Positions 25,053 through 51,000 of a stretch of 64,000 nt of DNA are shown piece after piece (position 1 is the stretch's first letter; each line of letters begins with the position of its first letter). Under the pieces are notes generated by a model. It was not told the DNA's origin. It saw only the letters and a list, made by a program, of their open reading frames with translations, and made no database searches. The stretch lies in contig LGRX02027647.1 of NCBI GenBank assembly GCA_001247695.2, positions 1-64,000 on the forward strand. Direction: 5' to 3'. Source of the stretch: Cymbomonas tetramitiformis. Taxonomy: Eukaryota > Chlorophyta > Pyramimonadophyceae > Pyramimonadales > Pyramimonadaceae. Both the position numbers and the translations under genes were made by a program.

Positions 25053-25125
25053 CTTGTCCTCCCACGAATTGGCTGAAGTATCATTGCAACAACACCTGAG
25101 AAAAACAATTCTTTCTAATCAGTAA

Positions 25126-25533: not shown

Positions 25534-25551
25534 ACAATAGCGAATATGTGA

Positions 25552-26364: not shown

Positions 26365-26387
26365 ACCTTTGCCTTGATCCTGTAGGA

Positions 26388-26663: not shown

Positions 26664-26675
26664 GCGGCGTAGAGG

Positions 26676-27242
26676 CTATTTACCAACGGTTGGGCCATAG
26701 GATACTGGAGGCTGAATAACCATGACTGCACGGATTCTGTCTTCGATGATGGATAAGCCTGCCTCTGAGATGTGGTGTCCGATAAAGTCGATACTTCTGA
26801 CGAACAACTCAACCTTCGAAGGCCTGATGTAGAACTGATGCTCTCTGCAGCGCTGTAGGAACTGGCGAACTTGCTTCACGTGTGTGTCGAAATCTGGACT
26901 GTACACTATGGTGTCATCCATGAAGATGACTAATAAGAACTGATCAATGAGGTCAAAGAATGCTCGGTTTCCATCACGCAGAGCGGTCGCAGGAGCGTTA
27001 GTTAACCCAAAGGGCATCACTGTCCACTCGTATGAACCATATCTAGTTCGTATTGCTGTCTTATGGATGTCGTCTGGATGAATAGGGATCTGATGGGAAA
27101 ACTGGTTGAAATCGAATCTGCTGAACCAGCGTGCCCCCTTAAGCTGTTCAAGAAGGGTATCATGAGGTGGCAATGGATGCGTGTCCTTTATGGTGATGTT
27201 ATTGATGATGTTGTTGATGACGTTATCATAATCGCAGCACAT
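26676..27242 (-). pseudogene. Ty3/gypsy reverse transcriptase palm fragment
   Basis: 188 codons in the same frame as the upstream block. Visible RT motifs are FSRFDFNQFSHQI (first catalytic Asp), MPFGLTNAP and the catalytic box FMDD, with Met for the usual Val/Leu. It ends at a TAG, after which the frame continues into the thumb/connection block. Confidence 0.85.
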
Positions 27243-27299
27243 CCTCCACTTTCCCCCTGGCTTAGGAGCGAAAATGATTGGGCACCCATATGGTGATGA

Positions 27300-27782
27300 T
27301 TATGGACGAAGGATACCCAACTCGACATATTTGATGATTTGCCATTTGAGCTCCTCCATCATAGGCACTGGAATAGTTCGAACTGGCTGTGATGGTGGCT
27401 TATGCCCAGGTTCAATGTTGATGCGATGATATCCACCTTCAAACCGTTCTGGCCTGTGGCCAGCTGGAAGATCCTCCTGGAAAATATCTGAAAAGTCTTC
27501 TCTTACACGATCACGTTCTGCTGTGACCTCTGGGTCTTCCATGGTAGTGTCTGAGTCAGTTGCTGTCATGACCACTTCACCATCAACCTCTGAGAGAAAA
27601 AAGAGATAAGCTACGGCTTCTTCAGCCGACCCACTGGATTGTATACGTCGCAGGTGCTTTCTCATCGTGGTGGCACTGACCAGTTCCATTTCAGGAAGGC
27701 CATCTGATTTCTGAGTATCTTCAACTCTGGAAAGAACTGTGCGAACACTGGAACCTGAAGAGTGTGTCCTGGTGATCGTCAT
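27300..27782 (-). pseudogene. Ty3/gypsy pol fragment: protease-RT linker and RT N-terminus
   Basis: Of the 160 codons, the last third carries the sequence before RT motif 1, ending GILRP. A TAA stop follows immediately, and the same frame then continues with SSPYGCP and KWRMCCDYD, the expected next RT residues. One substitution therefore separates this block from the next. The protease active site is not present. Confidence 0.75.
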
Positions 27783-29040
27783 GTTCTTGGACTGAAAGTC
27801 AATATGTGGATTTCACCTCTCCAACCAATCCTCAAATGATTCTTACGGCCCCTTTGGCATATGAGATGCTACTTCCGTCACACGACAGGATGGAAATCCG
27901 TTTCTTTTCTGTTATAAATCAGAGCTTATACCCGTTACACATCAGATACCCGTCACGTAACTGTTCCGTCTTGTATCGGGTTACCTGACGGATAGAAGAC
28001 TGGGTACGAGACGGGACGTACGCCAGGTCATTTGGCACGTGGTATTGATAACCAATGAAGAGATGTCGCGTGGTACTCTTTTAAATTCCACCAATAAAGT
28101 AGTCGCGATGTAATCAAAATATAAAAGTTTCCTCAAAGATGTCATCAGTCGACACAATGTGTGCTAGGAGGCAAGCACAAGAGCAAGAAAAACGGCTAAG
28201 TATAAAACGCAAGAGTACTCAGTACGGAGTACAGTAGGACCGATCAGAATGATGTTGATGTGAGGTGCCTAGCTTGTTGTACGGAGTACTCAGTACAGTT
28301 GAGTTATGGAAAGAGTTCCTGAATGTATAAGAACTCCAAGTGTAACCCGTTTCGGAGATGAGAACTGAACTGCGAATTGTAACATAAAAAGTAAGAGCCG
28401 TAACTGCTGTATATTGTGTATAGAAAGCATACACTTGAAAGCAAAAGCATAACTATAAAGATTTACGAAACCGAAGTCTTGTAGTTGACCAACCGTAATC
28501 ATACCTCGTGCGGTCGTTTAATAAGTATAGATATAATAAGTCCGAAACCGTAAGGAAGAACCAAGCAAGAGTGGAGACTCCTACAAAATGGTAATTAGTT
28601 CGTGTTTTCACGTTGCTTCCCTGTTTTTCTTGCGCTAATTCTGATCAGATTCACCTTGCCTTGCGCGACTAGCTAGCGTAGTGCGACACTACGAAATCGA
28701 GAATGTCTGTGCTTTCGTTCTTGTTGCGCGGCGGTGTGTGGGTTTGAGGGTTCCAGGTCGCTTGGAGCCGCGTTGGTGTGGAGGAATCTAGCCCAACGAC
28801 AATCTTTTGAGGTGCGCGCGTTGCCTTGGTCCTAGCACGCATAGCACGCATATCACGCATAGCCGTATTTTGGACTCACAGGTCGCGGGAAATCGGAATC
28901 GTCTCAGTTTTCCGGCAAATCCGACCCTCTGCGGCGGAAGCGCTGCGCAAATTTTCGAATTTTGCGTGGCTTTTGCTAGAATTCGGAGTCGGTTCGGGAT
29001 TTCGCCTACCTTTAATTTGGCCCTCTAGTCCCCCCTATTC
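27783..29040. other. Gene-free stretch between the two gypsy elements
   Basis: No supported gene. It contains the related motifs ACTCAGTACGGAGTACAGT (about 28217) and GTACGGAGTACTCAGTACAG (about 28279), which form a partial inverted repeat. It also has a short CACGCATAGCACGCAT repeat near 28838 that recurs near 29337, on either side of the 170-bp duplication. Confidence 0.45.
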
Positions 29041-29560: not shown

Positions 29561-32500
29561 GTGCGGCGTGCGCTTGCACGCCAATACGGCGGTGAAGCCC
29601 TCGAGGCTACACCGGCGCGCACCCCCCTGAAGGCCCCTCCAGGGTTGTCTGGTGAGCCCCCCAGGGCCTCACCACCGAAAACCCCCTCACCAGCGAGAGT
29701 CAGTGGGTCTGAGCCAGTGTCCGAGCTCGCATTGAGCTCGGCGCTACGGCAGCCGGCGCGCCGGAGGCGCGCGTCGCCCGAAGCTCCGGCGCCGGCGGCA
29801 GGCACCAGCTCCGAGTCGGACTCGGACCGCTCTGCTAAGGGGTTGAACCCCTCGGCAGCTCCCTTCTCCCCACTCCCTGCGTCCAGCAGGAGTACGAGCA
29901 GTAAGTTCGTCCGTCAGGAACCGACGTCGGGACCGGCAGCGTCCTCCCTCCCTCCCCTCGAGGGGGGCGAGCAAGGAAATCTCATCAGTGCTCCAGGGCG
30001 CTTTGAGATTTACCGAGCCGGTGACTGGAGCCCACCTGCAGAAGGGGAGTCTGATGATGTCCGGCGCCCAGAGCGGCTGGACGTCGTCCAGTCACGGGGG
30101 CACGAGTCTCGCATCCGGCCCAATCCGGCTTGGCGAGGAGAGCGACGTCAATCCATGCTCGCATTGGCCATTCGTCAATGGAGCACCTGGGCGCTGGACT
30201 CAGCGCAACGACGTGCAAGAGTCTCCCTGCCATCTCGTCAGCGCGCAACTGCGCGGCTTGCTTGGGTCGCATGGAAGGCCAGAACGGACCGGTCAGCGCA
30301 TCAGCGCGAGCTCCAGCGCCTGGCATTCCAAGCGTGGAATGACGTCACCCAGCAGGTCGCCCAACTTCAGGGCCTGTTCGTCAGAGGCAGTCGGCGCCGA
30401 GTCGAGTCCGCTTTCGCGGCATGGCGCCAGCGTGTCATCCAGACACAGGGTCTGTGGCGCAGGGGCAAACGTCAAGCTGGAGCCGTCTTCATGGCATGGC
30501 ACCAGCAGACGACGCTCTCCAAGGAAAGGAGCACCTGGTGGGTTGGAGCCCGAAGACACCGGATGACTCAGATGGTCAAAAGGTGTCTCCGCGAGTGGCA
30601 CCGACTCCCCAGAACGATCCCAGTCAGCTCGGACTCGTCCCAGGGAACGAGTGCCCGCCGTCCAGTAAAGAAAGCGGGAACCTCATCCGGTGTCAGCTCT
30701 TGCTCGGATTCCGACCAGGGGTCTTTGTGGCAAGACATCCGTCGAGGCCTAAAGCGCCTGGGGAAGGACCACCTGCTGTCAGGGATAATGTGGTTCCAGC
30801 TCAAGGACCATGGGCTCTCCGAGGACGGCGCTTATCGCCTGGAGATCCACCAGCAGGCAGTCTCCGAGTCCAAGAGGTTAATGCAGCAAAAGCGCGAGGA
30901 CCCCCACAACTCCCTCGAGAGGTGTAGGTTCTCTGCCTTTGCCATCAACGTCAGCAGACCGGGAGAGATAGTACGCCGGGGAGTGGACCTCTGGGAGGTA
31001 AGGAGGGCAGTCGTCGCGGCCGTCAGAATGAGCGGCCGCACCCGGAAGTCGCACAGGGGTCTTAGGAAGTCAGGCACAGCACCTCCGAGTTCCGCAGCTC
31101 CTGGTGGGAACTGGTCAAACCGGTTTGCTCCTCTCTCGTCCTCATCGGAGGAGGAGCATCCCGCGGAACTTCCAAGGTCCAGGACTCAGGCGCCTAAGCC
31201 GAGCGGCCCCGGTCGCCCGGCGCCTCGCACTCGGAAGCCCAGTCGAGCACCCTCGGCTCCGCGCCCCGGTCCAGCTTCCTCAGGGGATGCGTCGTCGTCC
31301 CCGGAGTCCACCTGGAGCCGGAACAGTCAGGACCTGCAGGAGCTGAAGGAGGCCTGGCAGAAGGAGTCCCGAGCTCGGGAGGCAGCTGCCGAGGCTCGCC
31401 TGGAACAGCTGTCTCGGCAACTCCAAGAGAGCCAAAGAGCGGCCGAGGAGCGCAGGATCTCCGATCAGCGCGCTGCCGAGGAGCGTAGGGCCTCCGAGCA
31501 ACGTGCTGTCGAAGAGCGCTGGGCCGCAGACCGGCTGGCTGCAGAAGCCCGGGAGACTGCCAGGCAGTTGGCTGTCGACGAGAGCGTCGCTCAGCAGGTA
31601 GCTGCCGAAGAGCGGCGAGCGTCGGCTGAGGCTCAGCTAGAGGAGAGGCTGCAGGCGGTCATAGAGTCTCAAGTCCAAAGGCTCGCCCTGGTTCAGGCTT
31701 CGCCCTCGGGACCCGTGGAGTCGGACGCTCGAGGGCCCTCAACGGCAATGTCGAGTCCGGTTCAGGAGACGCCCATCTCCCGAGGGGGGCATGAGCTGGT
31801 AGAGCCTGCTTCCGTCGTCACCTGTGACGTCGAGAACCGGGACGTGCAGAGCCCGCCAGAGGAGTCACACACGGGCGTGGCATCGCTCCCGCCGCACGCA
31901 TGGGACTTTGTTTCCCTTCCTATACAAGTCTGCAATAACGCCCTCCGGAAACACGTGGTCGGGTATGCCAAACCGGGGATCGAAGCCCAGCGCCTGTTTT
32001 ACGACGCCGCTCGTAGGTATCGTTCCCTTGGTCAGGTCGCCGGGTGCTTGCACTCTGCCAGTCAGATCAGGCATTGCCTGAAGGCAAGAGTCTCGGACGA
32101 GGACAGGGTCCTCGGGGCCCAGGTGATTCACAGTCTCACGACGGCCTTAGCGCACGTCGCAGAGAGCTGCGCTCGCTGTGGGTGCGGGCACGAGGAGAGC
32201 CCGGTGCGTATGTGGACGTGTCAAGTAGGCGCTAAGAAAAGTGTGGTAGCGCTCCTGAAGAAGGTGTACCTGCCGGTGTGTGGGTTTTGCGCCGCGGACG
32301 TGTGGCCCGGTGCTTTCGACGACTTTCCGGCTGTGTCACCGCCTCCGCTTGCTGCGACGGTAGACACACCGGAAGACGGGGGGGGATGGTCCCTCGACTG
32401 GAGCACTCGGAGTCAAACGAGCTTCCGGAGGTGCCCGGTGCCAGCAGTCATGGTGGTCCCGGAGGCTCGGGGGGCGGTGACCCTGGAGGGCCAGGAGGCC

Positions 32501-32806
32501 CGGGGAGTCCGGGCGAGGACCCTGGCGGCGATGGGCCGGGTGAGGATGGGGATGGCGACAGCCAGTTCACCTTCTCGTCCTCTCGTTACACGGAGCCCCG
32601 AAGCCATTACAGTCGTAAGGACGAGCAGCACGCTCTCAAGGAGGCCCTCAGAGCCATGGAGAAGGCAGTGGACAAATACCACACAGAGGTGGAGGGGTCG
32701 TCCCACGTCTTTGGTCGGCTCCTCCGATTTGTTCGGCAGGTCAGGGAGGTTCGGGAACTGGAGCCGGTGCGCTACGCCATGGAGATGGCGCGTCTGGGAC
32801 CACTAG
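29561..32806 (+). CDS. ORF upstream of Gag with Sfi1-like Trp repeats and coiled coil
   Basis: 1081 codons. The first codon is GTG and the first ATG is at 30155. Residues 1-200 are Pro/Ser/Ala-rich low complexity. Residues 225-355 hold five repeats built around A-x2-W (AWVAWK, AFQAWND, AFAAWRQR, VFMAWHQQ, CLREWHR) spaced about 25-40 residues, resembling the centrin-binding repeats of Sfi1-type proteins. Residues 590-715 form an Arg/Glu/Ala-rich coiled coil with repeated AAEERRxSxQR units. Residues 865-910 contain Cys pairs (CARCGCGH, CGFC), possibly a zinc site. The frame runs into the start of Gag, and the last 140 codons in this frame are probably non-coding. The switch to the Gag frame coincides with a G8 run at 32377-32384, so this ORF may be fused to Gag by slippage or by a sequencing error. 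Confidence 0.6.
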   Translation: MRRALARQYGGEALEATPARTPLKAPPGLSGEPPRASPPKTPSPARVSGSEPVSELALSSALRQPARRRRASPEAPAPAAGTSSESDSDRSAKGLNPSAAPFSPLPASSRSTSSKFVRQEPTSGPAASSLPPLEGGEQGNLISAPGRFEIYRAGDWSPPAEGESDDVRRPERLDVVQSRGHESRIRPNPAWRGERRQSMLALAIRQWSTWALDSAQRRARVSLPSRQRATARLAWVAWKARTDRSAHQRELQRLAFQAWNDVTQQVAQLQGLFVRGSRRRVESAFAAWRQRVIQTQGLWRRGKRQAGAVFMAWHQQTTLSKERSTWWVGARRHRMTQMVKRCLREWHRLPRTIPVSSDSSQGTSARRPVKKAGTSSGVSSCSDSDQGSLWQDIRRGLKRLGKDHLLSGIMWFQLKDHGLSEDGAYRLEIHQQAVSESKRLMQQKREDPHNSLERCRFSAFAINVSRPGEIVRRGVDLWEVRRAVVAAVRMSGRTRKSHRGLRKSGTAPPSSAAPGGNWSNRFAPLSSSSEEEHPAELPRSRTQAPKPSGPGRPAPRTRKPSRAPSAPRPGPASSGDASSSPESTWSRNSQDLQELKEAWQKESRAREAAAEARLEQLSRQLQESQRAAEERRISDQRAAEERRASEQRAVEERWAADRLAAEARETARQLAVDESVAQQVAAEERRASAEAQLEERLQAVIESQVQRLALVQASPSGPVESDARGPSTAMSSPVQETPISRGGHELVEPASVVTCDVENRDVQSPPEESHTGVASLPPHAWDFVSLPIQVCNNALRKHVVGYAKPGIEAQRLFYDAARRYRSLGQVAGCLHSASQIRHCLKARVSDEDRVLGAQVIHSLTTALAHVAESCARCGCGHEESPVRMWTCQVGAKKSVVALLKKVYLPVCGFCAADVWPGAFDDFPAVSPPPLAATVDTPEDGGGWSLDWSTRSQTSFRRCPVPAVMVVPEARGAVTLEGQEARGVRARTLAAMGRVRMGMATASSPSRPLVTRSPEAITVVRTSSTLSRRPSEPWRRQWTNTTQRWRGRPTSLVGSSDLFGRSGRFGNWSRCATPWRWRVWDH

Positions 32807-33657
32807 AGAGCGGGGGTGAGGAGAAGGTGTTGTCGGACCACTCCCTGCTGTCGGAAGTGGCCAGACACTGCTTCGGCAAACTCAGCTCCGAGTACCGCGA
32901 GCTTTCTTCGGTGTTGACAGAGGCTCGGGAAGGTAAGAACCTCACCCTGGACGTCATAGTGGTCCCCTTGGCGCAGCTGGTGATGCCCGACAAGGGGGAA
33001 ATGGCGTCGATCGGTCCGTTCCTGCGTCGCGTGCGTCAAAGTCAGGACAGACAGACTCGCACGGCCCGCGAGTTCTGGGACGGGGTGCACCTTGCTCACG
33101 ACATCGTGAGCATGCTGGCTGCCCACGAGCTCACCTCTCCGGTGCCGGAAGAGGAGCTGCTGGAGATATTCCTTACGGGATTGATACCGGAGGTAAGGAG
33201 GAAGGTCTTCCTTATAGCCGAGAGGAAAAGCTCTTCGGTCCTGACCCTGAGCCGGACGGCCAGTAAAGGCCGCCACGAACTCCTGACCTGGGCCATAGAG
33301 GCTGAGCGGGAGTTACGGCAGAGCCAGGATAAGACGAGCCGCTCGGTCCAGCTGCTGGCCCACGTAGATGTCACGGAGGAGCTGCTAGCCATGGCGACAT
33401 CCGCTGGCACTCCGACACCCACAGGGCAACGACTCGGCTCCCCAGAGCACGAGGGCTGCCGTCTGTGCAAGAGCATGGACCATTATGCCCGCGACTGTCC
33501 GCAGGCGAAGCAGCGCCCGAAGGAGTGGGCCAAGTGCCTCCTGGAGGACACCCTGGCGTTGATAGGGGACGAGTCGGTGGATGAAGCTTTGGCTGCCATC
33601 GGATTGGATTTTGTCCAGGAGGACGCTCCCCAGCCCGGGGCGTCCTCCCCGCAGTAA
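32386..33657 (+). CDS. Gag polyprotein with CCHC zinc knuckle
   Basis: 423 residues from the ATG at 32386, which directly follows a G8 run. Gly/Pro-rich N-terminus, then helical capsid-like sequence with the retrotransposon Gag signature region (ARTAREFWDG, ELLEIFLTGL, VRRKVFLI), then a canonical C-x2-C-x4-H-x4-C knuckle (CRLCKSMDHYARDC) near the C-terminus. It would package the element RNA into virus-like particles. The stop is TAA, and pol lies in other frames downstream after an additional ORF. Reading frame upstream of the ATG is open but not convincing as coding. Confidence 0.85.
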   Translation: MVPRLEHSESNELPEVPGASSHGGPGGSGGGDPGGPGGPGSPGEDPGGDGPGEDGDGDSQFTFSSSRYTEPRSHYSRKDEQHALKEALRAMEKAVDKYHTEVEGSSHVFGRLLRFVRQVREVRELEPVRYAMEMARLGPLESGGEEKVLSDHSLLSEVARHCFGKLSSEYRELSSVLTEAREGKNLTLDVIVVPLAQLVMPDKGEMASIGPFLRRVRQSQDRQTRTAREFWDGVHLAHDIVSMLAAHELTSPVPEEELLEIFLTGLIPEVRRKVFLIAERKSSSVLTLSRTASKGRHELLTWAIEAERELRQSQDKTSRSVQLLAHVDVTEELLAMATSAGTPTPTGQRLGSPEHEGCRLCKSMDHYARDCPQAKQRPKEWAKCLLEDTLALIGDESVDEALAAIGLDFVQEDAPQPGASSPQ

Positions 33658-34926: not shown

Positions 34927-36666
34927 TTGGAATGCATAATGCAGGACGGCGATATCAGTCCGAGCTGGTGTGAGTCCCTGGCAGCGGTGTCCTCGATGGG
35001 AGCGCGCCCGAGGAGTTTCGACAGGCACAGTCGCACACCGACGTTGTTGCTGTTTTGGGCCTGGATTGCGGGCGTCAGAGTCAAGGTGTTGGTGGATTCG
35101 GGAGCGTCCACCAATATTATCGCAAAGAGTACACTGCAGAAGCTCACCGGCGTCAAGCCGGTGCGCCACGAGCAAGCCATGCGGGTTCGGGTGGCTGACG
35201 GCACCACGTATGATGCTAATTCCTGCATCAGGCCCAAGCTCCTTGCTGAGACGTCGAAGGGGTCATACGGCCAGCAAGTTGAGCTTCGGGTAATGCCCCT
35301 CGACCTCAAGGTGGATGTCATCCTGGGAGGTCCTTGGCTGGCGAACCTTTCCCCGGTTACACTGGATTATAAGAACTGGGGTTCGGTCCGGTTCACCAAG
35401 GGCAGGGAAGAGGTCGTCATCACCGGCTGTTCGCCGGGGTCCCCGGACCCCAGTCGGTCCAAGGACACGGCAATGGCACTGGTACAGGGAGTCCTTTTGA
35501 GCCAACGTCGAGCTCGCCGGGACCTGCGGACCCTCCGAAACAGAGAGGAGCAAGCTTTCGTCGTCTACCTCGGCCCCGATGGGACTTTTGGCGCGTTGGC
35601 CTGCAACAAGGGGGGGGGAGACTCCGACGAAGATTCCCCCAACGATGTTGTAGCAGGCCTAGCGTCAGAACCCTCCTCCGGGTCCGAGGATAGTGAAGTC
35701 AGCGTGCGTCCCAGCGCAACGGTGCCGGACGGAGCAGAGGAGTCTGAGGGGCCGGGAGGGTTGGTCTCGGACAGCTCCGAGTCCGGCTATAGTGACGTGG
35801 AAGGAGCGTGTCATTTGCAGAGAGTAGGGGCGGTGGTCGAGGATATTAGGCCACAGGGATTTGCGAGTACGGTCGACGAGGCCGGGGATCATCCTGACCC
35901 TCTCAGCGTTTTCGCTAGCAAGCAGGAGGCGAACGGAGCGTTTGCGTTGCTTCCGCCAGCGGTGCGTAGACAGGCGATAGAGGATCACGCGGCCGGGAAG
36001 CCACCCACCTGGCACGCGCAGGCAGCCGCGGCGCTCCAGCAGGGCCGGGGTCTGGTCGCGGAGCGACGACCCCGAGCACGGCGTAAGCGAGTGCGTTGGC
36101 GTGACCAGGTCGCAGCAGTCGGTCAGCCTGGTGCTGAAAGTGGCCCCTCCGCCGGGCAGCCGCCGGGACCAAAAGTCCCCACCGTCCCGAGCCCTCAGAG
36201 TCAGAAGTCGCGAGCCTCGGCACCAGTCGTGCCGCCAGACACTACCCCGCCGCCAGCTCCGCAGACCACAGACCCGCCGGTACCGGCCGTCCCGCCAGGC
36301 ACTACCCCGCCGCCAGCCCCACAGACTGCTCAGGCCTCCCCGGAACCGCCGGAGGACGAGATAGACGAGACGGTGTCGCCGGAAATCTGGCAGCAGCTTA
36401 GGGACCTGGAAAAGGAGTTCGCAGATGTCATTTGCACAGAGCTGCCAGAATCAGTCCAGTCAAGGGAATTCAAGTCCGGCATCCGGCTCAGGCCAGATTG
36501 GAGTGGGAACGCCTTGCACCGGCGAGGGTACAAGCTGTCGCAGGAGGAGTTGCGGCAACTCCGGCAACAGCTAGATGAACTCTTAGCCAAAGGGTACATA
36601 CGACCCTCGGCCTCTCCGTGGGGCTGCCCCGTGCTGATGGTCCCCAAGCCGAGTAATCCCAAATAG
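34927..36666 (+). CDS. Pol N-terminal part: retropepsin and start of reverse transcriptase
   Basis: 579 residues. Aspartic protease at about residues 35-160 with the active site VLVDSGASTNII and the flap/hydrophobic strand VDVILGGPWL. A long Pro/Ser/Glu-rich linker follows, with a repeated block (VPPxTTPPPAPQT twice near 440-475), then the RT N-terminus (GYIRPSASPWGCPVLMVPK). The ORF ends at a TAG (36664-36666) exactly where RT motif LRLVIDYRQINE begins in the same frame, so protease and RT belong to one polyprotein interrupted by a single amber codon. It could be a simple point mutation, a CAG or GAG to TAG change, or a read-through codon. Confidence 0.85.
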   Translation: MECIMQDGDISPSWCESLAAVSSMGARPRSFDRHSRTPTLLLFWAWIAGVRVKVLVDSGASTNIIAKSTLQKLTGVKPVRHEQAMRVRVADGTTYDANSCIRPKLLAETSKGSYGQQVELRVMPLDLKVDVILGGPWLANLSPVTLDYKNWGSVRFTKGREEVVITGCSPGSPDPSRSKDTAMALVQGVLLSQRRARRDLRTLRNREEQAFVVYLGPDGTFGALACNKGGGDSDEDSPNDVVAGLASEPSSGSEDSEVSVRPSATVPDGAEESEGPGGLVSDSSESGYSDVEGACHLQRVGAVVEDIRPQGFASTVDEAGDHPDPLSVFASKQEANGAFALLPPAVRRQAIEDHAAGKPPTWHAQAAAALQQGRGLVAERRPRARRKRVRWRDQVAAVGQPGAESGPSAGQPPGPKVPTVPSPQSQKSRASAPVVPPDTTPPPAPQTTDPPVPAVPPGTTPPPAPQTAQASPEPPEDEIDETVSPEIWQQLRDLEKEFADVICTELPESVQSREFKSGIRLRPDWSGNALHRRGYKLSQEELRQLRQQLDELLAKGYIRPSASPWGCPVLMVPKPSNPK

Positions 36667-39600
36667 TTGCGTCTAGTCATTGACTACAGACAGATCAATG
36701 AGATCACAGTCAAGGATAAGTACCCCCTCCCAGATGTCCAGAGTCTCTTAGATGACCTACAAGGGGCTACCGTCTTCTCTACGATGGATGCCCTTTGGGG
36801 ATTTTGGCAGGTTCCTATGAAAGCAGAGGACGTGGAGAAAACCGCAATGACTACGCACTTTGGAGCGTACGAGTGGTTGGTCATGCCCATGGGATTGTCA
36901 AACTCCCCAAGTACCTGGCAAAGGATGATGCAACAGTACCTCGGGCACCTACCCTTTTGCAGAGTATTTGTAGATGACATCATGATTTTCTCAGCTGAGG
37001 TTCCGGGTAAGAGCGCCCATGAGGTACACCTCGACCACCCCCGCCAGGTCTTGGAGGCGTGTCGAAAGAATTCCGTCTACCTTAAAAAGTCGAAAGTCAA
37101 ACTGTGCAAACGATCAGTCCGGTTCCTAGGGCATGTGGTGGATCGGGATGTATGCCGCCCACAGCAGGATAAGGTTGCGTCGGTACGCGATTGGCCAGAC
37201 CTAGAAACTGTCACACACGTGCGACAGTTCCTGGGCATGTGTGGCTTCTACCGGAGGTACATCCAGAACTTCGCAGATATCGCGTACCCGTTGACCCGCC
37301 TCACCAAATCCGGCGTGGACTGGGCCTGGGGCGAGAATGAGATCGCAGCATTTAAACAGCTAAAAACTGCTTTGATCTCCTCCCCAGCCTTGGCCCTACC
37401 CGATCAAAAGGGCGCAGCAGACGGTTCCAGACCCTTCTTCGTACAGACAGATGCCAGTGGAGTAGCACTAGGGGGTGTACTCATGCAGGATCAGGGACGA
37501 GGCTTGCAGCCCTTGGCCTTTGAAAGCCGGCAGTTCTCCAGCGCAGAGCAGAACTATCACGCTGGGGAACGGGAGCTTTGTGCCATCCATCATTGTACCA
37601 CGGTCACCTGGAGACATTATCTGATTTTTACATCATTTAAGCTCATGGGAGACCATAAACCCCTTCAGTGGCTCTTCGCCCCAGCTAGGGAGCTCAGCCG
37701 ACGTCAGACTCGCTGGTACGAGGACTTGGTAGAAGTAGGAGTCCATCAGATGGAGCACGTGCCAGGGCGCTGTTTGGTAGTACCAGATGCGCAGTCCCGG
37801 CGACCAGACTATCAGGAAATGTCAGCCAGAGAAGGTTTGAAGGAAAAAGGGATTGTGGATCGCGCCACGGATGGGCCCAGAGACTCCGCACCGATAGGCA
37901 AGGGGTCCGAAGAGGACGAGGATCCTACCTCTGTCCTCGGGGCAGTGGATCGCACCACCGATGGACCCGAGTACTCTGAGCCGAAAGGCAAGAGATGTGA
38001 AGAGGACGAGGATCCCACATCTGTCTTAGGCGCCACCTTCGAGTATAGTGATTCCGAGGACGAGTCCTTCCCTCCCACCAGTCCGGCACCGGTCATTGGT
38101 GAGCTCACCCATCTGAATGGGCTCACGTGGGTAGAGTCGCCGGCCCTCTGGCTGGACGCAGCTGCCACCCTAGCAGTAGGCGAGAAGTCCTTGAGGGATG
38201 CCGAATCGCTAGCAGTCATGACCAGAGCAGACCGAGCTAGGGAACAGGCCGCAGCAGAAGTCCAGAGTCATCCGGAGAAAGGAGCACCGGGGACCGACGA
38301 GTTCCCCCATCCTGAGACCCAGAGTCATCCAAAGGCAGCCGGAAAGGTACCTGAGCCCGTTAAGCCCCCAGAAGGTAGCTCCCACTACGACCAGGTCGTA
38401 GATCGCCAGGACTGGAAGCTGATCAGGGAGCGCTTTGAGGAGATAGCGGCCCAGTACGGGATGTTTGACGTTGACGCGTGTTGCGACTCCATGGGCGTTA
38501 ACCGGCAGGTTGACACCTACTGGACCGACTGCTTGAAGGAAAAGTGGCGCGGGAAACACGTTTGGTGTAACCCCCCTTACACGAAGGATTCGGACTTGAT
38601 AGAAAGAATTCTTCGGCATTTCCTTGCTGAGTGGCGCGCCGATCCAGAAAACACCTCGGCGATGTTCCTTCTGCCAGACTATGACGCTCCCTGGAGGCGG
38701 TTGATTCACCCCAAGTATGGGCTTCATCCGGTCAAGGTCTTTGACATGAAGGACGAAAAAGGTCGTCCCAACCACCTCTTCGAGTCCCCTGATGGAGGTC
38801 GGCCCCCGCTGCGCTGGCCGGTCCTTCTGGTGTGGGCCCCAGCAGCCAGCAGGGCAAAGCCCCGAGCGCCACCTGCGCGAAAGGACAGTGAAGCAGAACC
38901 CGACGAGCCTTTAGTCACTACAGGGGTTGCAGCAAAGGCCAGGGCAGCGTCAGGACCACTGAAGGCTGGTGAGTTCGTCCGCGCCTTGCAAGCGGAATAC
39001 GAACGCAGCCCGTACCTCAGTTCGTTGAAAGAAGAACTGATCGCAGCCCCACATCAGAGGACAGACACATTTCGCATGGTAGACGACATGATATGGCGAG
39101 TGGCAGAAGGGCGGTATCAGCTGGTGCTAGCTCAGGATTCCCCCCTCAGAGAGCTGGTGATGCGCGAAGCACACGAGTCCCCAGCAGCAGGGCACACAGG
39201 GAGGGATAAGACACTGGACAGGGTATCCCGTCGTTTTTGGTGGCCACGCATGAGCAAGGATGTCACCGACTGGTGCAAATCCTGCGTCGTGTGCCAACAG
39301 ACCCGGCCACGCAACGGGTATCCAGACGGTCAGCTTAACCCCCTGCAAGTCCCAGTAAGACTGTGGCAAGTGGTTAGTATCGACTTCGTCACTGGGCTGC
39401 CTCGCACAGAGCGAGGGTACGACGCGTTTGCTACCTTCACGGACAAGCTGTCCAAGATGGTGCACGTAGTCCCTATGCTTTACGCTGACAGCTCGGCTGC
39501 ACAGATCGCGCGCATGTATTTCGACCAAGTGTGGCGTTTGCACGGCGCTCCCATGAAGATCGTCTGTGATCGGGACTCCCGCTTCAGGGATGAGATGCAT

Positions 39601-41319
39601 CTCGAGCTACATCGGTTGATGGGAGTCCAGATTGCCTCTACCACGCCGTACCACCCGCAAGGTGATGGGCAGGCAGAGCACACAAACCACACGGTCGAAC
39701 GCATGTTGCGCGCGTATGTCGACGCCAACCAGCACGATTGGGATTTGTGGTGTACCCCGGTCGAGTACGCCATTAATGACTCTCGTTCCGCCGTCACGGG
39801 CTTCACCCCTTTTGAACTGACGTACGGTCACGCTCCGGCCTCTCAGCTGGACTTTTTCGTGGAAGCAGCACTTGCATCACGGAGAGGCCGAGCTAAGGGG
39901 GGGAGGGGCGCAGCAGTAAAAAGGGGTACAGCCCACGAGACAGCCCGCCAATTTGTTCGCCAGTTGCAGCTCGCTAGGGAAAAGCTGCTCTTAGCTCAGC
40001 AGCAGCAGGTCGCTCAGTACGACGCGCGTCACAGGTCCAGGAGTTACGCGGTAGGCGATGAGGTTTGGGTGGACGCCACGTACCTCACCCAGCCGGGCGA
40101 CTGCGGGTTGCACAAAAAATTGCTTAAGAAGCGCCTCGGGCCCCTTCGGGTGCTGGAAGTCTTTCACAGCGACAGGCAGATGGCCCTTCCCGCGAGCGAT
40201 AGAGGCGCACCGTCGGCCTATAGGTTGCAGACGCCTAAGCAGTGGAAAGTGCACGATGTGTTTACCGTGGACCGGCTTTCGCCGGTAGAGTCGGGCAGCC
40301 GCTTTGTTGAGAGAGCTAAGGAGATTTCCCCTCCTCCGTTGGACGTCAGCGGGCGCAAGGAAACCCACGTCGAGAGGGTGGAGCGTTCGCGTACGCGCCA
40401 GCGTCAGGGTAAGAGGTGGACGGAGTACCTGGTCAAGTGGACCGGAATGCCCCGCAGCGAGAACGAGTGGAAGACCCGAGAGGATCTGGAGTGGGACGGA
40501 GCCGGCAGGCCCGGCGTTCCCAACCGGGCGTTGTTGGAGTTTGAGAGGATCGAGGCTAAGAGAGTGGAGCGAGAGAAGCTTAGGGTCCGCAAGAGGCGCG
40601 ACGAATCCGCAGGAGCGGTATGGACTACGCTCTCGGAGGAGCTCAAGGTAGACGGAGCAATGCCATGGGTGCCAGAGGAGAGGTTTGATGAGGAAGTAGG
40701 AACTTTCGCGAGAGTATCTGCTCAGAGCACCCTGCCGCCAGTCAACGGAGCCGCAGCACTTGAGAAGGAGCCAGTCGGCCAGTCTAAGATTCTCGTATTG
40801 TTTTGTGGGACCGGGTCAGTCGAGAGGCAGTTCACTAAGCAATTTCCCAACAGCGAAGTAGTTGCCGTAGACATTCAGCCCAAGTGGGGCCCCACACATT
40901 GCGAGGATATCATGCGATGGGACTACCGACAGTTCAGACCAGGACACTTCGACGTAGTCTGGGCTAGCCCACCTTGTACAGAGTACAGCCAGGCGAAGAC
41001 GGTAGGCATCCGAGATTTGCGCGCTGCGGACAGGCGAGTTCGTAGGACATTGGAAATCATCCGGTACTTGAGGCCCGAAGCATACTTCATTGAGAACCCG
41101 AAGGGAAGAGAGCCCCACGGTTTGCACACGCGTCGATGCATGAGCAATCTACCAGCTCCGCACCTCGTCACGTACTGTAAATACGGGACCGCATACAGGA
41201 AGCCCACGCACATCTGGACCAACGTTCCGTTGCGCACACCCCTGCGAGTGTGTGATTCCGACACGCCTTGCGAGAGCGCATGCTGGCGGCTGCAGAGCGG
41301 GCGGTGGCGACTGATATGA
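36667..41319 (+). CDS. Pol: RT, RNase H, Dam-type adenine methyltransferase, integrase, chromodomain, C5-cytosine methyltransferase
   Basis: 1550 codons directly after the in-frame TAG; the first codon is TTG, so this is a continuation rather than an independent start. RT 1-210 (FVDD near 100). RNase H 250-380 (QTDAS, GDHKPLQWLF). Acidic linker with two 30-residue repeats ending EEDEDPTSVLGA. Dam-type DNA adenine methyltransferase 577-722 with FDVDACCDSMGVN and catalytic NPPY at 635-638. Integrase finger 835-878 (H..H..CKSCVVC). Integrase core 900-1010 (SIDFVTG, CDRDSRF, GQAEHTNHT). Chromodomain-like segment 1240-1300 (YLVKWTGM, NEWKTREDL). C5-cytosine methyltransferase 1374-1525 with motif I LFCGTGSVE, catalytic SPPC (Cys 1437), ENPKG and the C-terminal RKPTHIWTN. 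All catalytic residues I can identify are intact. The two methyltransferases would modify adenine and cytosine respectively. The stop is TGA. Confidence 0.9.
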   Translation: MRLVIDYRQINEITVKDKYPLPDVQSLLDDLQGATVFSTMDALWGFWQVPMKAEDVEKTAMTTHFGAYEWLVMPMGLSNSPSTWQRMMQQYLGHLPFCRVFVDDIMIFSAEVPGKSAHEVHLDHPRQVLEACRKNSVYLKKSKVKLCKRSVRFLGHVVDRDVCRPQQDKVASVRDWPDLETVTHVRQFLGMCGFYRRYIQNFADIAYPLTRLTKSGVDWAWGENEIAAFKQLKTALISSPALALPDQKGAADGSRPFFVQTDASGVALGGVLMQDQGRGLQPLAFESRQFSSAEQNYHAGERELCAIHHCTTVTWRHYLIFTSFKLMGDHKPLQWLFAPARELSRRQTRWYEDLVEVGVHQMEHVPGRCLVVPDAQSRRPDYQEMSAREGLKEKGIVDRATDGPRDSAPIGKGSEEDEDPTSVLGAVDRTTDGPEYSEPKGKRCEEDEDPTSVLGATFEYSDSEDESFPPTSPAPVIGELTHLNGLTWVESPALWLDAAATLAVGEKSLRDAESLAVMTRADRAREQAAAEVQSHPEKGAPGTDEFPHPETQSHPKAAGKVPEPVKPPEGSSHYDQVVDRQDWKLIRERFEEIAAQYGMFDVDACCDSMGVNRQVDTYWTDCLKEKWRGKHVWCNPPYTKDSDLIERILRHFLAEWRADPENTSAMFLLPDYDAPWRRLIHPKYGLHPVKVFDMKDEKGRPNHLFESPDGGRPPLRWPVLLVWAPAASRAKPRAPPARKDSEAEPDEPLVTTGVAAKARAASGPLKAGEFVRALQAEYERSPYLSSLKEELIAAPHQRTDTFRMVDDMIWRVAEGRYQLVLAQDSPLRELVMREAHESPAAGHTGRDKTLDRVSRRFWWPRMSKDVTDWCKSCVVCQQTRPRNGYPDGQLNPLQVPVRLWQVVSIDFVTGLPRTERGYDAFATFTDKLSKMVHVVPMLYADSSAAQIARMYFDQVWRLHGAPMKIVCDRDSRFRDEMHLELHRLMGVQIASTTPYHPQGDGQAEHTNHTVERMLRAYVDANQHDWDLWCTPVEYAINDSRSAVTGFTPFELTYGHAPASQLDFFVEAALASRRGRAKGGRGAAVKRGTAHETARQFVRQLQLAREKLLLAQQQQVAQYDARHRSRSYAVGDEVWVDATYLTQPGDCGLHKKLLKKRLGPLRVLEVFHSDRQMALPASDRGAPSAYRLQTPKQWKVHDVFTVDRLSPVESGSRFVERAKEISPPPLDVSGRKETHVERVERSRTRQRQGKRWTEYLVKWTGMPRSENEWKTREDLEWDGAGRPGVPNRALLEFERIEAKRVEREKLRVRKRRDESAGAVWTTLSEELKVDGAMPWVPEERFDEEVGTFARVSAQSTLPPVNGAAALEKEPVGQSKILVLFCGTGSVERQFTKQFPNSEVVAVDIQPKWGPTHCEDIMRWDYRQFRPGHFDVVWASPPCTEYSQAKTVGIRDLRAADRRVRRTLEIIRYLRPEAYFIENPKGREPHGLHTRRCMSNLPAPHLVTYCKYGTAYRKPTHIWTNVPLRTPLRVCDSDTPCESACWRLQSGRWRLI

Positions 41320-41612
41320 GAGTGGTCCCCCAACGACTGTATTCGACACCGCCGATGGAACGACTCCCCACATCGATACTTCTCCTGACGAGGGTGTGGT
41401 AAACCACCAGCCGCATCATCGTCGCCGTGCTTCGGGTCCAGAGACTCTTGGGAGAACCTTGCCAACACGCACGGAGCCTCAAGACGTGGTGACAGAGGAC
41501 CTCTCTCAAGCTCACGCGTCTCAACCTGGCTGGGAGCACTACATCCGGCTCCGGCTATGAGTCTGCAGCGGGTACTCAGCATAGTCGCAAACGACGAGAA
41601 CGGCGTCTCAAG

Positions 41613-42158
41613 TTGGAGAAGCATCGGAGGAAGGAGTTGACGGACCAGGAAATGTTGCAGAGGGTAGTACGCGCTGAGACCGCTCGGTTCCTCGCAGAGA
41701 CCGAGGCGGGGAGCTTACGCGATCAAATGGCTCAGCTAGAGGCTACTACAGCGGAGGGCGAGGTGGCCGAGGAACGGCGTCTAGCAAGAAGACGCCGGGC
41801 AAGCATGGACACCCCTGTGGTGTACGGGTCTGGTGAAGGCCAGCCACAGCATGCAGCGGGAGCGGCTGAGCATGCAACCAGCTCGGCAGAGCATGCAACA
41901 CAGCATGCAACACGGCCGGCTGAGCATGCAACATGCCCGGCTGAGCATGCAACCAGCTCAGCTAAGCATGCAACACAGCATGCAACACGGCCGGCTGAGC
42001 ATGCAACACGCCTCGCCCAGCATGCAACCGGTCAGTCTGAGCATACTACATGGGAAGCGTGTAGAGGGGGAGTATCCTTATTAAATACAACTGTATTCCT
42101 TAAGTACCTTCTGTATTTTGCTAGGATTTCCCAGTATTTCGGAACGCTTCCCATGTAG
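41613..42158 (+). CDS. Trailing ORF with Ala-Glu-His-Ala-Thr repeats
   Basis: 181 codons from a TTG; the frame is open further upstream. Residues 1-60 are a charged helical segment (DQEMLQRVVRAETARFLAE). Residues 75-145 are a low-complexity array of AEHAT-type repeats encoded by the 75-bp tandem repeat. The last 30 residues run into the inverted-repeat segment and are doubtful. A preceding piece (about 41340-41560) in another frame also looks coding-like, so a frameshift near 41560 may have split a longer third ORF. No known domain. Confidence 0.35.
   Translation: MEKHRRKELTDQEMLQRVVRAETARFLAETEAGSLRDQMAQLEATTAEGEVAEERRLARRRRASMDTPVVYGSGEGQPQHAAGAAEHATSSAEHATQHATRPAEHATCPAEHATSSAKHATQHATRPAEHATRLAQHATGQSEHTTWEACRGGVSLLNTTVFLKYLLYFARISQYFGTLPM
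41871..42040 (+). repeat. 75-bp tandem repeat built from AGCATGCAAC motifs
   Basis: The block ACCAGCTCxGCxxAGCATGC begins at 41877 and again at 41952 (75-bp period). Inside each, the AGCATGCAAC core recurs every 15-25 bp. SphI-type GCATGC palindromes dominate. Confidence 0.85.
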
Positions 42159-42159: not shown

Positions 42160-42300
42160 GAGTACCTACGGTTATCTATGGCAGGTCTGCATAAGCCGAC
42201 ACCACGATCTTCGTACAATACCGCCTACTTACCGCCCATGCCCGCCTGCATTGCTCGCTCCCCAGCTCGCAAGTTAGTTATCAATTGATTGATGAACGGG

Positions 42301-42515
42301 AATCCTTGCCAAAATTGATTTATATTATATATATTAGTGTTTTGGCAATATTTCCCGTGATCGATCACAGAACGTTAATCCTTGCCAGTATTGATTTATA
42401 TTATATATATTAGTGTTCTGGCAATATTTACCGTAACTTATAAGTCCATACGCTAATCCTTGCCAATATTCATTTATATTATATATATTCTCGTTCTGGC
42501 AATATTTTCCGCTTT
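42301..42515 (+). repeat. Three tandem 76-bp units, each with an AT-rich stem-loop, upstream of the methyltransferase
   Basis: Units begin at 42301, 42377 and 42454 with AATCCTTGCC. Each contains TTGCCA, then an ATTTATATTATATATATT core, then TGGCAATATTT, so TTGCCA and TGGCAA can pair around an AT-rich loop. The third unit ends about 25 bp before the ATG of the methyltransferase gene. This is a candidate promoter or regulatory region. Confidence 0.85.
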
Positions 42516-42540: not shown

Positions 42541-43275
42541 ATGGGAACCCAAATATTCAATGCAGATTGTTTTGATATCTTGCCGAACATCGATTCCAAT
42601 TCAATCGATTTAGTTATCTTGGACTTACCGTACAATCAAACAGCATGCAAATTTGACAATCAAATCATTGATTTAGATCGGTTATGGAAACAATTGAAAC
42701 GTATCGGTAAACTTCGAACTGCATATGTATTTTTTTGTACACCTCGTTTCGGACATAAATTAATATCCAGCAACGAAAGAATGTTCAAATATGATATTGT
42801 ATGGCAGAAATCAATGAGTTCGGGATTCTGTCATTGTAATCACCAACCACTTCGATCGCACGAAATGTTATACATATTTTATGATAAGTTACCAACATAT
42901 AATCCACAAATGATTGACGGAATTCCTTATACACGCGTACCCGGTCGACGTACTGAATTGTATACTGGTAACAGCCCAAGAATCGATACTATATCTAATG
43001 GGAAACGGTTTCCGAAATCTGTAATAAGTATTGCTAATGGTAATTACAAAAGCAAGCACCCGACGGCGAAGCCTTATGGTATATTAGAGTGGATCGTTAA
43101 AACTTATTCAAATGAAAATGATAATGTACTGGACCCATTCATGGGCATCGGAACAACTGGCAAGGTATGCAAAGATAATAATCGAAACTTTATTGGAATT
43201 GAAACTGATCAAAAATATTATTCATGTTTATCACTGCAATGCATTTCAAGACAGGTAATACATGTAGGCTCTTGA
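42541..43275 (+). CDS. Beta-class DNA methyltransferase (N6-adenine or N4-cytosine), intronless
   Basis: 244 residues from the ATG at 42541; the 27 upstream codons in frame read through the AT-rich repeats and are unlikely to be translated. The catalytic motif DLPY (normally DPPY) is near the N-terminus. The mid-region YDIVWQKSMSSGF, LRSHEMLYIFY and LPTYNPQM is typical of this family. The SAM-binding motif DPFMGIGTTG is near the C-terminus. Catalytic motif before SAM motif is the beta-class order found in bacterial restriction-modification systems, phages and large DNA viruses. It is AT-rich, lacks introns, and differs from both methyltransferases in the gypsy element 1.2 kb upstream. Likely horizontal origin from a phage, bacterium or large DNA virus is inference. 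Its 3' end overlaps the last Cys-rich exon on the other strand by about 58 bp. Confidence 0.88.
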   Translation: MGTQIFNADCFDILPNIDSNSIDLVILDLPYNQTACKFDNQIIDLDRLWKQLKRIGKLRTAYVFFCTPRFGHKLISSNERMFKYDIVWQKSMSSGFCHCNHQPLRSHEMLYIFYDKLPTYNPQMIDGIPYTRVPGRRTELYTGNSPRIDTISNGKRFPKSVISIANGNYKSKHPTAKPYGILEWIVKTYSNENDNVLDPFMGIGTTGKVCKDNNRNFIGIETDQKYYSCLSLQCISRQVIHVGS

Positions 43276-48040: not shown

Positions 48041-51000
48041 GTGCGTGAGCTCACAAACGTAGATCTAGTAACCGACTCAACTTGAAGTCTCGGTCAAGTT
48101 TTCTTTTCGTCTGTTGGGTCGGAGTAAAAGTCGAAGAAAGCCATTGCGTTCTGTAACCGAAGGCAGCTTTGAATACTGCTTAAGTTGTCCCTAAAACCCA
48201 AGGTCGCCTTGGTTGTTTGCGTTCCGAGTTCTGTATGCGACAGTGGCATACACGCATGCCACGCATGCGTGTGCCCGATAAGTAGCGTCTAGAAAGCGTT
48301 TTCCGTGTACCTTTTCAAAATGATTCAGTACCAGAAATTACGTATCGTTTTTCGTTGTAAGCTTTCTCTAAAGGTTGTTTCATTAAGGTCAATAGCGTTT
48401 CTTGCAAACGCTGGAAATTCCGTGGGACTGTCCGCTCATTCGCCTAGCAGCGACCGGTATGCGTTTGATGCAGCATTAGACAAGCTTACTTACAACTTGG
48501 GACGCAATCATGCGCCAAGCTCTTCCACCTTAATGCGCGTTGAAATATCTTTTTGTTATTGTTGCGAACGTGTGCTGGTGCATGCTCCCCAGGACCCGGA
48601 ACTAAGCCTCGGGTTGCGTCGCTGTTTTGTTCAAGTAGCATAGAAAAGGCTCATTGAGATATTGAAGTCGGACATCGTTGCAACTAGTTAAAGACGGTTT
48701 TCGTAGAATAGTGTTACTATATTGTTGCGTGCGCACATATAACAGCTTAGTTTATTGGAATGCTAGATGCAGCCCCTCCCACCCGCCGAACTAAGTCTAC
48801 GGTGCTATGAGGAATGGTTTCAGTGTTTAGCGTTTTGATCTTAAAAGCATTGCTTTTACAACTAACTGTGAACAAGGTGTTAAACTTCGCACTTAGGGGT
48901 GAGCTTGAGACATCTGGATGGCTCGCTCGCTTAGGGTATGAGGGGGAAATGGCGTTCTCCCCGCCACACCCAATCTGCAATCTGCTGTGACACTAGGATT
49001 GGGTTCAGTGCTTGGGATGGCCATACAGCATGCATGTGTGATGCATTCCATTGTAAAGCCCTTGATCTAAGCTTTACAACCATATATGGCACTTAGGGGT
49101 GAGCTTGAGGCATCTGGAAGGCTCGCTCGCTTAGGGTATGAGGGGGAAATGGCGTTCTCCCCGCCACACCCAATCTGCAATCTGCTGTGACATTAGGATT
49201 GGGTTCAGTGCTTGGGATGGCCATACAGCATGCATGTGTGATGCATTCCATTGTGAAGCCCTTGATCTAAGCTTTACAACCATATATGGCACTTAGGGGT
49301 GAGCTTGAGGCATCTGGATGGCTCGCTCGCTTAGGGTATGAGGGGGAAATGGCGTTCTCCCCGCCACACCCAATCTGCAATCTGCTGTGACATTAGGATT
49401 GGGTTCAGTGCTTGGGATGGCCATACAGCATGCATGTGTGATGCATTCCATTGTGAAGCCCTTGATCTAAGCTTTACAACCATATATGGCACTTAGGGGT
49501 GAGCTTGAGGCATCTGGATGGCTCGCTCGCTTAGGGTATGAGGGGGAAATGGCGTTCTCCCCGCCACACCCAATCTGCAATCTGTTGTGACATTAGGATT
49601 GGGTTCAGTGCTTGGGATGGCCATACAGCATGCATGTGTGATGCATTCCATTGTGAAGCCCTTGATCTAAGCTTTACAACCATATATGGCACTTAGGGGT
49701 GAGCTTGAGGCATCTGGATGGCTCGCTCGCTTAGGGTATGAGGGGGAAATGGCGTTCTCCCCGCCACACCCAGTCTGCAATCTGTTGTGACATTAGGATT
49801 GGGTTCAGTGCTTGGGATGGCCATACAGCATGCATGTGTGATGCATTCCATTGTGAAGCCCTTGATCTAAGCTTTACAACCATATATGGCACTTAGGGGT
49901 GAGCTTGAGGCATCTGGATGGCTCGCTCGCTTAGGGTATGAGGGGGAAATGGCGTTCTCCCCGCCACACCCAGTCTGCAATCTGCTGTGACATTAGGATT
50001 GGGTTCAGTGCTTGGGATGGCCATACAGCATGCATGTGTGATGCATTCCATTGTGAAGCCCTTGATCTAAGCTTTACAACCATATATGGCACTTAGGGGT
50101 GAGCTTGAGGCATCTGGATGGCTCGCTCGCTTAGGGTATGAGGGGGAAATGGCGTTCTCCCCGCCACACCCAGTCTGCAATCTGCTGTGACATTAGGATT
50201 GGGTTCAGTGCTTGGGATGGCCATACAGCATGCATGTGTGATGCATTCCATTGTGAAGCCCTTGATCTAAGCTTTACAACCATATATAGCACTTAGGGGT
50301 GAGCTTGAGACATCTGGAAGGCTCGCTCGCTTAGGGTATGAGGGGGGAATGGCGTTCTCCCCGCCACACCCAGTCTGCAATCTGTTGTGACATTAGGATT
50401 GGGTTCAGTGCTTGGGATGGCCATACAGCATGCATGTGTGATGCATTCCATTGTGAAGCCCTTGATCTAAGCTTTACAACCATATATGGCACTTAGGGGT
50501 GAGCTTGAGGCATCTGGATGGCTCGCTCGCTTAGGGTATGAGGGGGAAATGGCGTTCTCCCCGCCACACCCAATCTGCAATCTGCTGTGACATTAGGATT
50601 GGGTTCAGTGCTTGGGATGGCCATACAGCATGCATGTGTGATGCATTCCATTGTGAAGCCCTTGATCTAAGCTTTACAACCATATATGGCACTTAGGGGT
50701 GAGCTTGAGACATCTGGAAGGCTCGCTCGCTTAGGGTATGAGAGGGAAATGGCGTTCTCCCCGCCACACCCAATCTGCAATCTGCTGTGACATTAGGATT
50801 GGGTTCAGTGCTTGGGATGGCCATACAGCATGCATGTGTGATGCATTCCATTGTGAAGCCCTTGATCTAAGCTTTACAACCATATATGGCACTTAGGGGT
50901 GAGCTTGAGGCATCTGGATGGCTCGCTCGCTTAGGGTATGAGGGGGAAATGGCGTTCTCCCCGCCACACCCAGTCTGCAATCTGTTGTGACATTAGGATT

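Follow-up and report, generated by a model that had tools for sequence, protein, structure and literature searches.

In the window, a 64,000-nucleotide stretch of Cymbomonas tetramitiformis DNA (contig LGRX02027647.1, positions 1 to 64,000), the pol of one long terminal repeat (LTR) retrotransposon encodes both an adenine-type and a cytosine-type methyltransferase. The element is a repeated, chromodomain-bearing LTR retrotransposon of the Ty3/Gypsy type, whose 3' end is missing from the window copy; the Pol of its group is ordered as protease, reverse transcriptase (RT), RNase H, Dam-like methyltransferase, integrase (IN), chromodomain, and cytosine-C5 (C5) methyltransferase. Our favoured reading, held at a little under an even chance, is that both enzymes would methylate the element's own nucleic acid. 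An earlier sequence-only reading had claimed the two enzyme types in one LTR-retrotransposon pol; the claim is supported by motifs kept in most copies and relatives and by purifying selection on both domains, whereas its further idea, that the enzymes write 6mA and 5mC in DNA and so shelter the element from silencing, stays a conjecture. What appears to be new, within the openly licensed papers searched, is the pairing; each class alone in retroelements has already been published.

An open reading frame (ORF) scan of the window gives a frame at 36667–41319 (+) that is open for 1550 codons. The Pfam order within it is RVT_1, RNase H, Dam (PF05869), Integrase_H2C2, rve, Chromo, and DNA_methylase (PF00145). 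The RT portion 3' of an in-frame TAG occupies 36667–37140 (PF00078, E 1e-27; profile match residues 2–158) and is followed by RNase H at 37327–37731 (PF17917, E 7e-28; PF17919, E 3e-25), the Dam-like N6-adenine-type domain at 38401–38886, the integrase zinc finger and core at 39139–40026 (H2C2, PF17921, E 9e-24; rve, PF00665, E 4e-4, a profile match of 21.0 bits that is below the cut-off of 32.6), the chromodomain at 40273–40536 (PF00385, E 1e-7), and motifs I–VIII only of the C5 domain at 40786–41274, all on the plus strand. The order of RT, RNase H, and IN, together with the DDE integrase and the chromodomain, identifies the element as Ty3/Gypsy with a chromodomain. The placement of a Dam-type domain between RNase H and integrase, and of a C5 domain after the chromodomain in the same frame, is thus as first read. 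The extent of the frame needs qualification: it is open over its 1550 codons, but its start is set only by the TAG at 36664–36666 within RT, and the C5 domain, although present, is cut after motif VIII near 41274, the last 14 residues belonging to another repeat.

The Dam assignment passes the hidden Markov model (HMM) search that the sequence-only reading had proposed. PF05869 matches residues 579–647 of the window pol (E 3e-8) with 34.0 bits, above the curated cut-off of 28.1, and a PHROGs DNA methyltransferase family matches residues 587–670 (E 2.1e-11). The motifs FDVDAC (residue 600; 38464–38481) and NPPY (residue 635; 38569–38580) are in place, the latter an instance of [DN]PP[YFW], which we take to be the catalytic motif of Dam-type enzymes. 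Among relatives, P0022 (32.8 bits), P0023 (31.2), and P0067 (28.4) also pass the PF05869 cut-off, P0045 (26.1) falls below it, and P0080 is not matched at E 0.01. By sequence the domain also matches PHROG 111, and phage records stand at ~27–32% identity among the matches listed. NCBIfam TIGR01712 scores 25.2 bits against a cut-off of 97, and by sequence only two chains of solved structures are found (E 1.8 and 2.1). The predicted fold is adenine-N6-methyltransferase-like.

The C5 domain is recognised less sharply by the corresponding profile. PF00145 matches residues 1406–1480 (E 3.6e-4), so the proposed search does return a match, but its 20.5 bits lie just under the cut-off of 22; PHROG 757, a DNA methyltransferase family, matches residues 1367–1525 (E 9.6e-16). 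Against the same PF00145 cut-off, P0011 (21.3 bits) is below, P0022 (25.8), P0023 (24.5), and P0046 (31.3) pass, and P0045 is not matched at E 0.001. The window pol carries FCGTGS at residue 1379, SPPC at 1434 (40966–40977), ENP at 1476 (41092–41100), and RKPTHIWTN at 1511; in the usual numbering these include motifs I, IV (PPC), VI (EN), and VIII. The structural model of the domain (predicted local distance difference test score 84) has a DNMT fold: all 50 PDB matches listed are C5 DNA methyltransferase entries, some chains of which may be inactive partners such as DNMT3L. By fold DNMT3 leads, whereas in a profile comparison with the PDB the best match is Dnmt2 (E 6e-8), followed at a distance by HemK (E 0.1) and by DNMT1 chains at E 0.18 or higher, with no DNMT3 among the matches listed; our C5 tree contains no host Dnmt3. 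In the collections searched, the closest sequences are phage (28.6–34.1% identity) or prokaryotic (prokaryote-labelled contigs at up to 41%), besides one retrotransposon contig, L061, described below.

To place the window copy among its kin, we searched the assembly (851,713,466 bases in 25,745 contigs) and scored 30 copies, window included, as the best of 24,958 first-look candidates; the latter figure is not accepted as a copy number, only 30 having been scored. Each scored copy covers pol residues 1–1536 or more at 97–100% identity, and 26 of the 30 have no internal stop. Both methyltransferase sequences are present in all 29 other copies. The search for full-length relatives with both domains therefore finds these 29 as well as the family pols described below, and the result set beforehand as counting against the pairing, namely that all other copies lack one domain, is not seen. 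Although the window copy is itself chimeric at 41274, a single-copy accident, whether a chance fusion or an assembly artefact, is refuted by the 29 other scored copies with both domains and by a group of 39 related pols.

Both domains are under purifying selection, of roughly the strength seen in RT and integrase. The ratio of nonsynonymous to synonymous rates (dN/dS; Nei–Gojobori, 435 pairs of the 30 copies, codon-bootstrap intervals in brackets) is 0.108 (0.051–0.218) for Dam and 0.082 (0.047–0.143) for C5, compared with 0.066 (0.030–0.129) for RT, 0.033 for RNase H, 0.068 for IN, and 0.095 for the chromodomain. The linkers give 0.295 (0.147–0.593) between RNase H and Dam, 0.128 between Dam and IN, and 0.080 between chromodomain and C5. 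In the same copies, the motifs are nearly invariant (Dam NPPY in 29/30, C5 SPPC in 30/30, C5 ENP in 29/30).

The copy in the window is broken, by the stop in RT and by the cut in C5, and the full protein cannot come from it. The TAG at 36664–36666 (+) is a nonsense codon private to this copy, absent from the 29 others scored. Similarity of the C5 domain to the family ends at codon 1536 (41274), where an unrelated repeat at 41270–42050 (+) cuts the element's 3' end. This repeat matches at 92–98% at 39 other places (40 places scored, window included, of 2026 candidates), and a C5 profile search at two fetched places returns no match. P0011, 98.6% identical over 871 residues, extends past the break with a C-terminal part, and motifs missing from the window copy (C..PC, G.H, AQ.G, Y.IP, LL..LF and similar) are present in most printed relatives. 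The C5 domain of the window copy is thus incomplete: P0011 has a longer one, as do most of the 11 other copies with printed tails.

Beyond these close copies, three protein searches, two by Dam or C5 similarity and one by integrase (best 120 of 124), yield 136 proteins including the query. We analysed the 86 pols in which the RT profile and the IN profile are each covered to 90% or more; of the 50 left out, P0112 was excluded for its domain order and the rest for falling below 90% of one profile. Among the 86, Dam and C5 occur together in 31, Dam only in 9, C5 only in 5, and neither in 41. Eight pols come from the C5 search only (P0039, P0040, P0042, P0043, P0045, P0046, P0048, and P0049); without them, the integrase-chosen sample has both domains in 26 (query P0001 included), Dam only in 9, C5 only in 2, and neither in 41. 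All organism-named proteins in the Dam and C5 searches are from Cymbomonas tetramitiformis, and the integrase search adds weaker matches from land plants and a fish. A chance resemblance to methyltransferases is excluded, because many pols from other copies and lineages match the profiles of both stretches and conserve the motifs.

In trees of RT and IN, the pols with an internal Dam domain, plus P0076, form one group of 39 (support 100/99; recovered in 200/200 bootstrap trees), which is a clade only if the root lies outside it; the careful tree has 78 rows, eight long-branch rows having been dropped. All 31 two-domain pols of the 86 fall in this group, alongside 7 with Dam only and 1 without a match. 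Four of the Dam-only pols (P0006, P0010, P0031, and P0075) stop 0–279 residues past IN, whereas C5 starts at 310 in the window pol; they are uninformative on C5 loss because their sequences end before C5 would begin. A second group comprises four C5-only pols (support 99/98), the fifth C5-only pol being dropped as a long branch. Elsewhere, Dam is N-terminal in two of the 86 pols and C5 is N-terminal in P0039, and P0047 and P0050 have an N-terminal C5 that clusters with viral sequences. For the 27 pols with both domains whole, the distances of RT, IN, Dam, and C5 are correlated (r 0.65–0.88, with 0/2000 permutations as high in each comparison; Mantel r is 0.83 for IN–Dam and 0.81 for IN–C5). 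From the single supported group and the correlated distances, we infer that both domains were probably present in the ancestor of the 39-pol group and were inherited together, with later decay in some lines.

The decayed lines bear on whether catalysis matters at all. P0067, P0068, P0076, and P0080 have, at the C5 position, a degenerate C5-like stretch without PPC or ENP (hhalign probability 67% for P0067/P0068 and 96% for P0076/P0080, compared with at most 1.1% in ten shuffles of the P0080 tail), and in P0076 the Dam domain is degenerate as well (hhalign 96%). NPP[YF] is lost in P0031, P0032, P0033, P0053, P0057, and others. These sequences suggest an additional non-catalytic role or a relaxed need in the degenerate lineages. 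They are also what would be expected if the domains were mainly structural or nucleic-acid-binding parts of Pol with incidental catalysis, an explanation that we consider quite unlikely for the family as a whole since the motifs are kept in most pol rows with letters at those places (NPP[YF] in 53/63, SPPC in 55/59, ENP in 54/54).

Self-modification by the element could proceed as follows. Both enzymes would be made as parts of Pol, would enter the particle, and would have nucleic acid of the element itself as their substrate. For the C5 enzyme this would most likely be freshly made double-stranded cDNA, methylated no later than integration, with a passing mark that protects it from nucleases or deaminases of the host or from self/non-self recognition. 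The Dam-like enzyme would most likely act on the same cDNA, giving 6mA, or on packaged RNA.

Several observations weigh against this account. The catalytic motif is lost while the domain stays in some lineages, so catalysis is not always required. The dN/dS values cover 30 near-identical copies picked as best matches, in pairs that are not independent, and two of the three linkers are similarly constrained, so that the contrast is seen only at the RNase H–Dam linker. A stop precedes the C5 domain in 3 of the 30 copies, and at least 2 of the 11 printed tails (L159 and L164) have an altered or cut C5 end. The predicted fold of the Dam-like domain is nearest to the RNA-cap m6Am enzyme PCIF1, closer than to the DNA enzyme Dam. 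Lastly, the CpG transition excess is weak and CpG is not depleted, as detailed below.

Because its fold is nearest to an RNA-cap enzyme, the Dam-like domain may have DNA or RNA as substrate. It could be an RNA enzyme that places N6-methyl marks on RNA of the element, as m6Am at the cap or m6A internally, for translation, stability, or immune evasion, leaving only C5 to act on DNA. We regard this as a minority possibility, as fold likeness to PCIF1 does not fix the substrate and the sequence places the domain with phage DNA N6-adenine methyltransferases (PF05869 above cut-off; PHROG 111). A wider proposal accommodates both substrates and seems to us slightly less doubtful, though still well short of even: a broad retrotransposon group may carry a two-mark self-modification kit, in which a phage-type C5 enzyme marks DNA and a PCIF1-like adenine enzyme marks RNA (or DNA), the kit having travelled with Pol through the group and decayed in some lineages to folds that persist without catalysis.

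Among the 30 copies, C-to-T changes per site-copy are 0.0088 at CG, 0.0075 at CHG, and 0.0061 at CHH. The observed/expected ratio of CpG is 0.89 in the element body and 0.85–1.00 across the element; elsewhere in the window it is 0.61 and 0.64 in two other retroelements and 0.73, 1.07, and 1.10 in three further stretches, a mixed comparison. Heavy, lasting CpG methylation of these copies is disfavoured because the CpG transition excess is weak and CpG is not depleted, and CpG decay is rejected as proof of 5mC, the signal being weak. Transient cDNA methylation, other sequence contexts, or a very recent insertion may be compatible with weak CpG decay. The same values count against an action in trans, in which the enzymes would modify insertion-site chromatin or the host genome and so place the element in tolerated, chromodomain-guided silent chromatin. 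That alternative is unlikely in our view, even though the chromodomain precedes C5 in pol and de Mendoza et al. 2018 (PMC5890265) report de novo CG methylation by a retrotransposon DNMT and discuss insertion-site effects.

Still less probable, indeed very improbable, is an antiviral module in which the enzymes serve the host against DNA viruses. Such a role has been proposed for Ty3/Gypsy and DIRS elements encoding DAM and DCM, those of green algae included (Morozov et al. 2019, PMC6338049, in the excerpt available). In our pol, Pfam recognises no partner nuclease, and the dN/dS of both domains resembles that of RT and IN, which is what a role in the element's own cycle would predict.

Single methylases in retroelements are known. 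Two chemically different methylases in one Pol, under purifying selection, in many near-identical copies (30 scored) and with relatives that have lost one or both active sites, amount to a natural experiment on why such enzymes are kept. Among the papers listed by our full-text search of openly licensed PMC articles, none is seen to describe both methylases in one pol; work by Iyer and Aravind reportedly may touch on the subject. Dam-type domains in DIRS elements and C5 enzymes in long interspersed nuclear element (LINE), DIRS, and Gypsy elements are published (PMC5890265). One of the closest known systems is the Klebsormidium nitens element KnitGypsy-Dnmt3 (de Mendoza et al. 2018, PMC5890265), whose pol is likewise of Gypsy type and includes a C5 DNA methyltransferase in its polyprotein, with Ka/Ks below 0.2 across distinct copies. 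It differs in its Dnmt3-related C5 and DIRS-like repeat structure, and the passages on it report no adenine-type domain; the Cymbomonas element has a small PHROG 757-type C5 after the chromodomain, together with the Dam-like domain. SymbioLINE-Dnmt and SymbioDIRS-Dnmt3 of Symbiodinium are also retrotransposon-encoded C5 methyltransferases, but of LINE or DIRS architecture rather than Ty3/Gypsy with a DDE integrase, as far as the same text goes (PMC5890265). Dam-like N6A methylases are also encoded by DIRS elements (Goodwin and Poulter, as cited in PMC5890265 and PMC6338049). These share the retroelement-encoded Dam-type domain but have a tyrosine recombinase in place of the DDE integrase, and the citing passages mention no adjoining C5. 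Morozov et al. 2019 (PMC6338049) name the DAM and DCM classes for Ty3/Gypsy and DIRS, green algae included, but the excerpt does not state that both enzymes occur in one element.

Traces of the family may have been seen before in Cymbomonas. Three scaffolds with >10,000x coverage and homology to chromodomain, RNaseH, and cytosine DNA methyltransferase were reported in 2015 (PMC5741210), and these probably belong to the same family as the window element, although the part available does not describe them as one element and mentions no Dam-like domain. Transcripts tied to the over-represented scaffolds are at 1.32 fragments per kilobase per million mapped reads, compared with 1.42, which is about the median level of the whole transcriptome (PMC5741210, same part).

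In L061/L154, a distant relative, Dam, IN, and C5 are accompanied by an LTR-like stretch and, by matched range, by the chromodomain. In L061, one 1255-residue frame begins within RNase H and continues through Dam, IN, and C5; 3' of it lie TGTCAG...CTGACA over ~200 bp, then TGGTATCAGAACC, which presumably resembles a methionine-tRNA primer site, and then a long ORF. The two contig ends both match pol and join within RNase H, as they would in a repeat that is circularly permuted or collapsed. Its record bears the title Verrucomicrobiaceae bacterium TMED86; for a contig that looks like a eukaryotic retrotransposon, this bacterial name very likely reflects a binning error. Viral contigs with a whole pol were searched for, and none was confirmed. 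Other enzyme-type additions occur among the related Ty3 pols: a SET domain (PF00856) is found in P0089, P0094, and P0100, in P0089 between RNase H and integrase, where it is another chromatin-type enzyme at the site at which other pols have Dam. An added PHD finger (PF00628) is found in P0040, P0062, P0064, P0065, and P0077, and P0044 has NPGP, which we take to be a 2A-like peptide motif, 3' of its C5 domain.

Upstream of 36667, the protease and the start of RT are in the same frame as pol, with the aspartic protease at 35062–35334 (+; PF13650, E 1.8e-7). A Gag zinc knuckle (CCHC) lies at 33454–33504 (+) in ORF 32278–33657 (PF00098, E 3.6e-4, 20.9 bits against a cut-off of 20.8). The stretch 28160–28585 (+; TGTGCTAGGAG...CTCCTACA) is identified as the 5' LTR by its match to the 3' LTRs of three other copies (92.7–96.5% identity over 426–431 columns), each of which is preceded by a run of G and ends in DNA differing among the three. 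This identification comes only through the 3' flanks of other copies: a direct search for an LTR pair within the window finds none, nor is a second copy of the 5' LTR found there. The 5' LTRs of the three other copies were looked for and not found, and among the copies examined none is seen with both LTRs. TGGTATCAGAGC, which we take to be the classical primer site, does not occur near the window's 5' LTR; it has 2 matches elsewhere, compared with a mean of 4.6 expected by chance.

Downstream of the element, an AT-rich stretch contains an ORF at 42541–43275 (+) that matches N6_N4_Mtase (PF01555, E 2e-27) and has relatives in four viral contigs at 28–41% identity; three copies of a 65-nt repeat lie 5' of it at 42294–42512. 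It is rejected as a third methyltransferase of the element because it lies outside the truncated copy and has a G+C content at third codon positions of 0.31, compared with 0.65 for pol.

A LINE-like element occupies 53757–63994 (−). Its ORF 58607–63994 (−) encodes endonuclease and RT domains, with a weak Ulp1-like match (E 2e-3, below the cut-off), and ORF 53757–58757 (−) encodes RNase H and PCIF1_WW (PF12237, E 6e-17), presumably the family of the m6Am cap methyltransferase; no [DN]PP[FYW] motif is found in either ORF. On its sense strand, only 2 ATC trinucleotides are present where dinucleotide frequencies predict 86.7, no other trinucleotide falling below 0.67 of expectation, and GATC is absent from its 10,238 bp because ATC is nearly absent. 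A second Gypsy element with a chromodomain, at 24366–27700 (−), has no recognised Dam or C5 domain. The window also contains an open frame of 5959 codons at 6111–23990 (−) and, at 48889–52188, a tandem array of a 200-bp unit in 16 registers that are 97–98% alike except for the last (61%).

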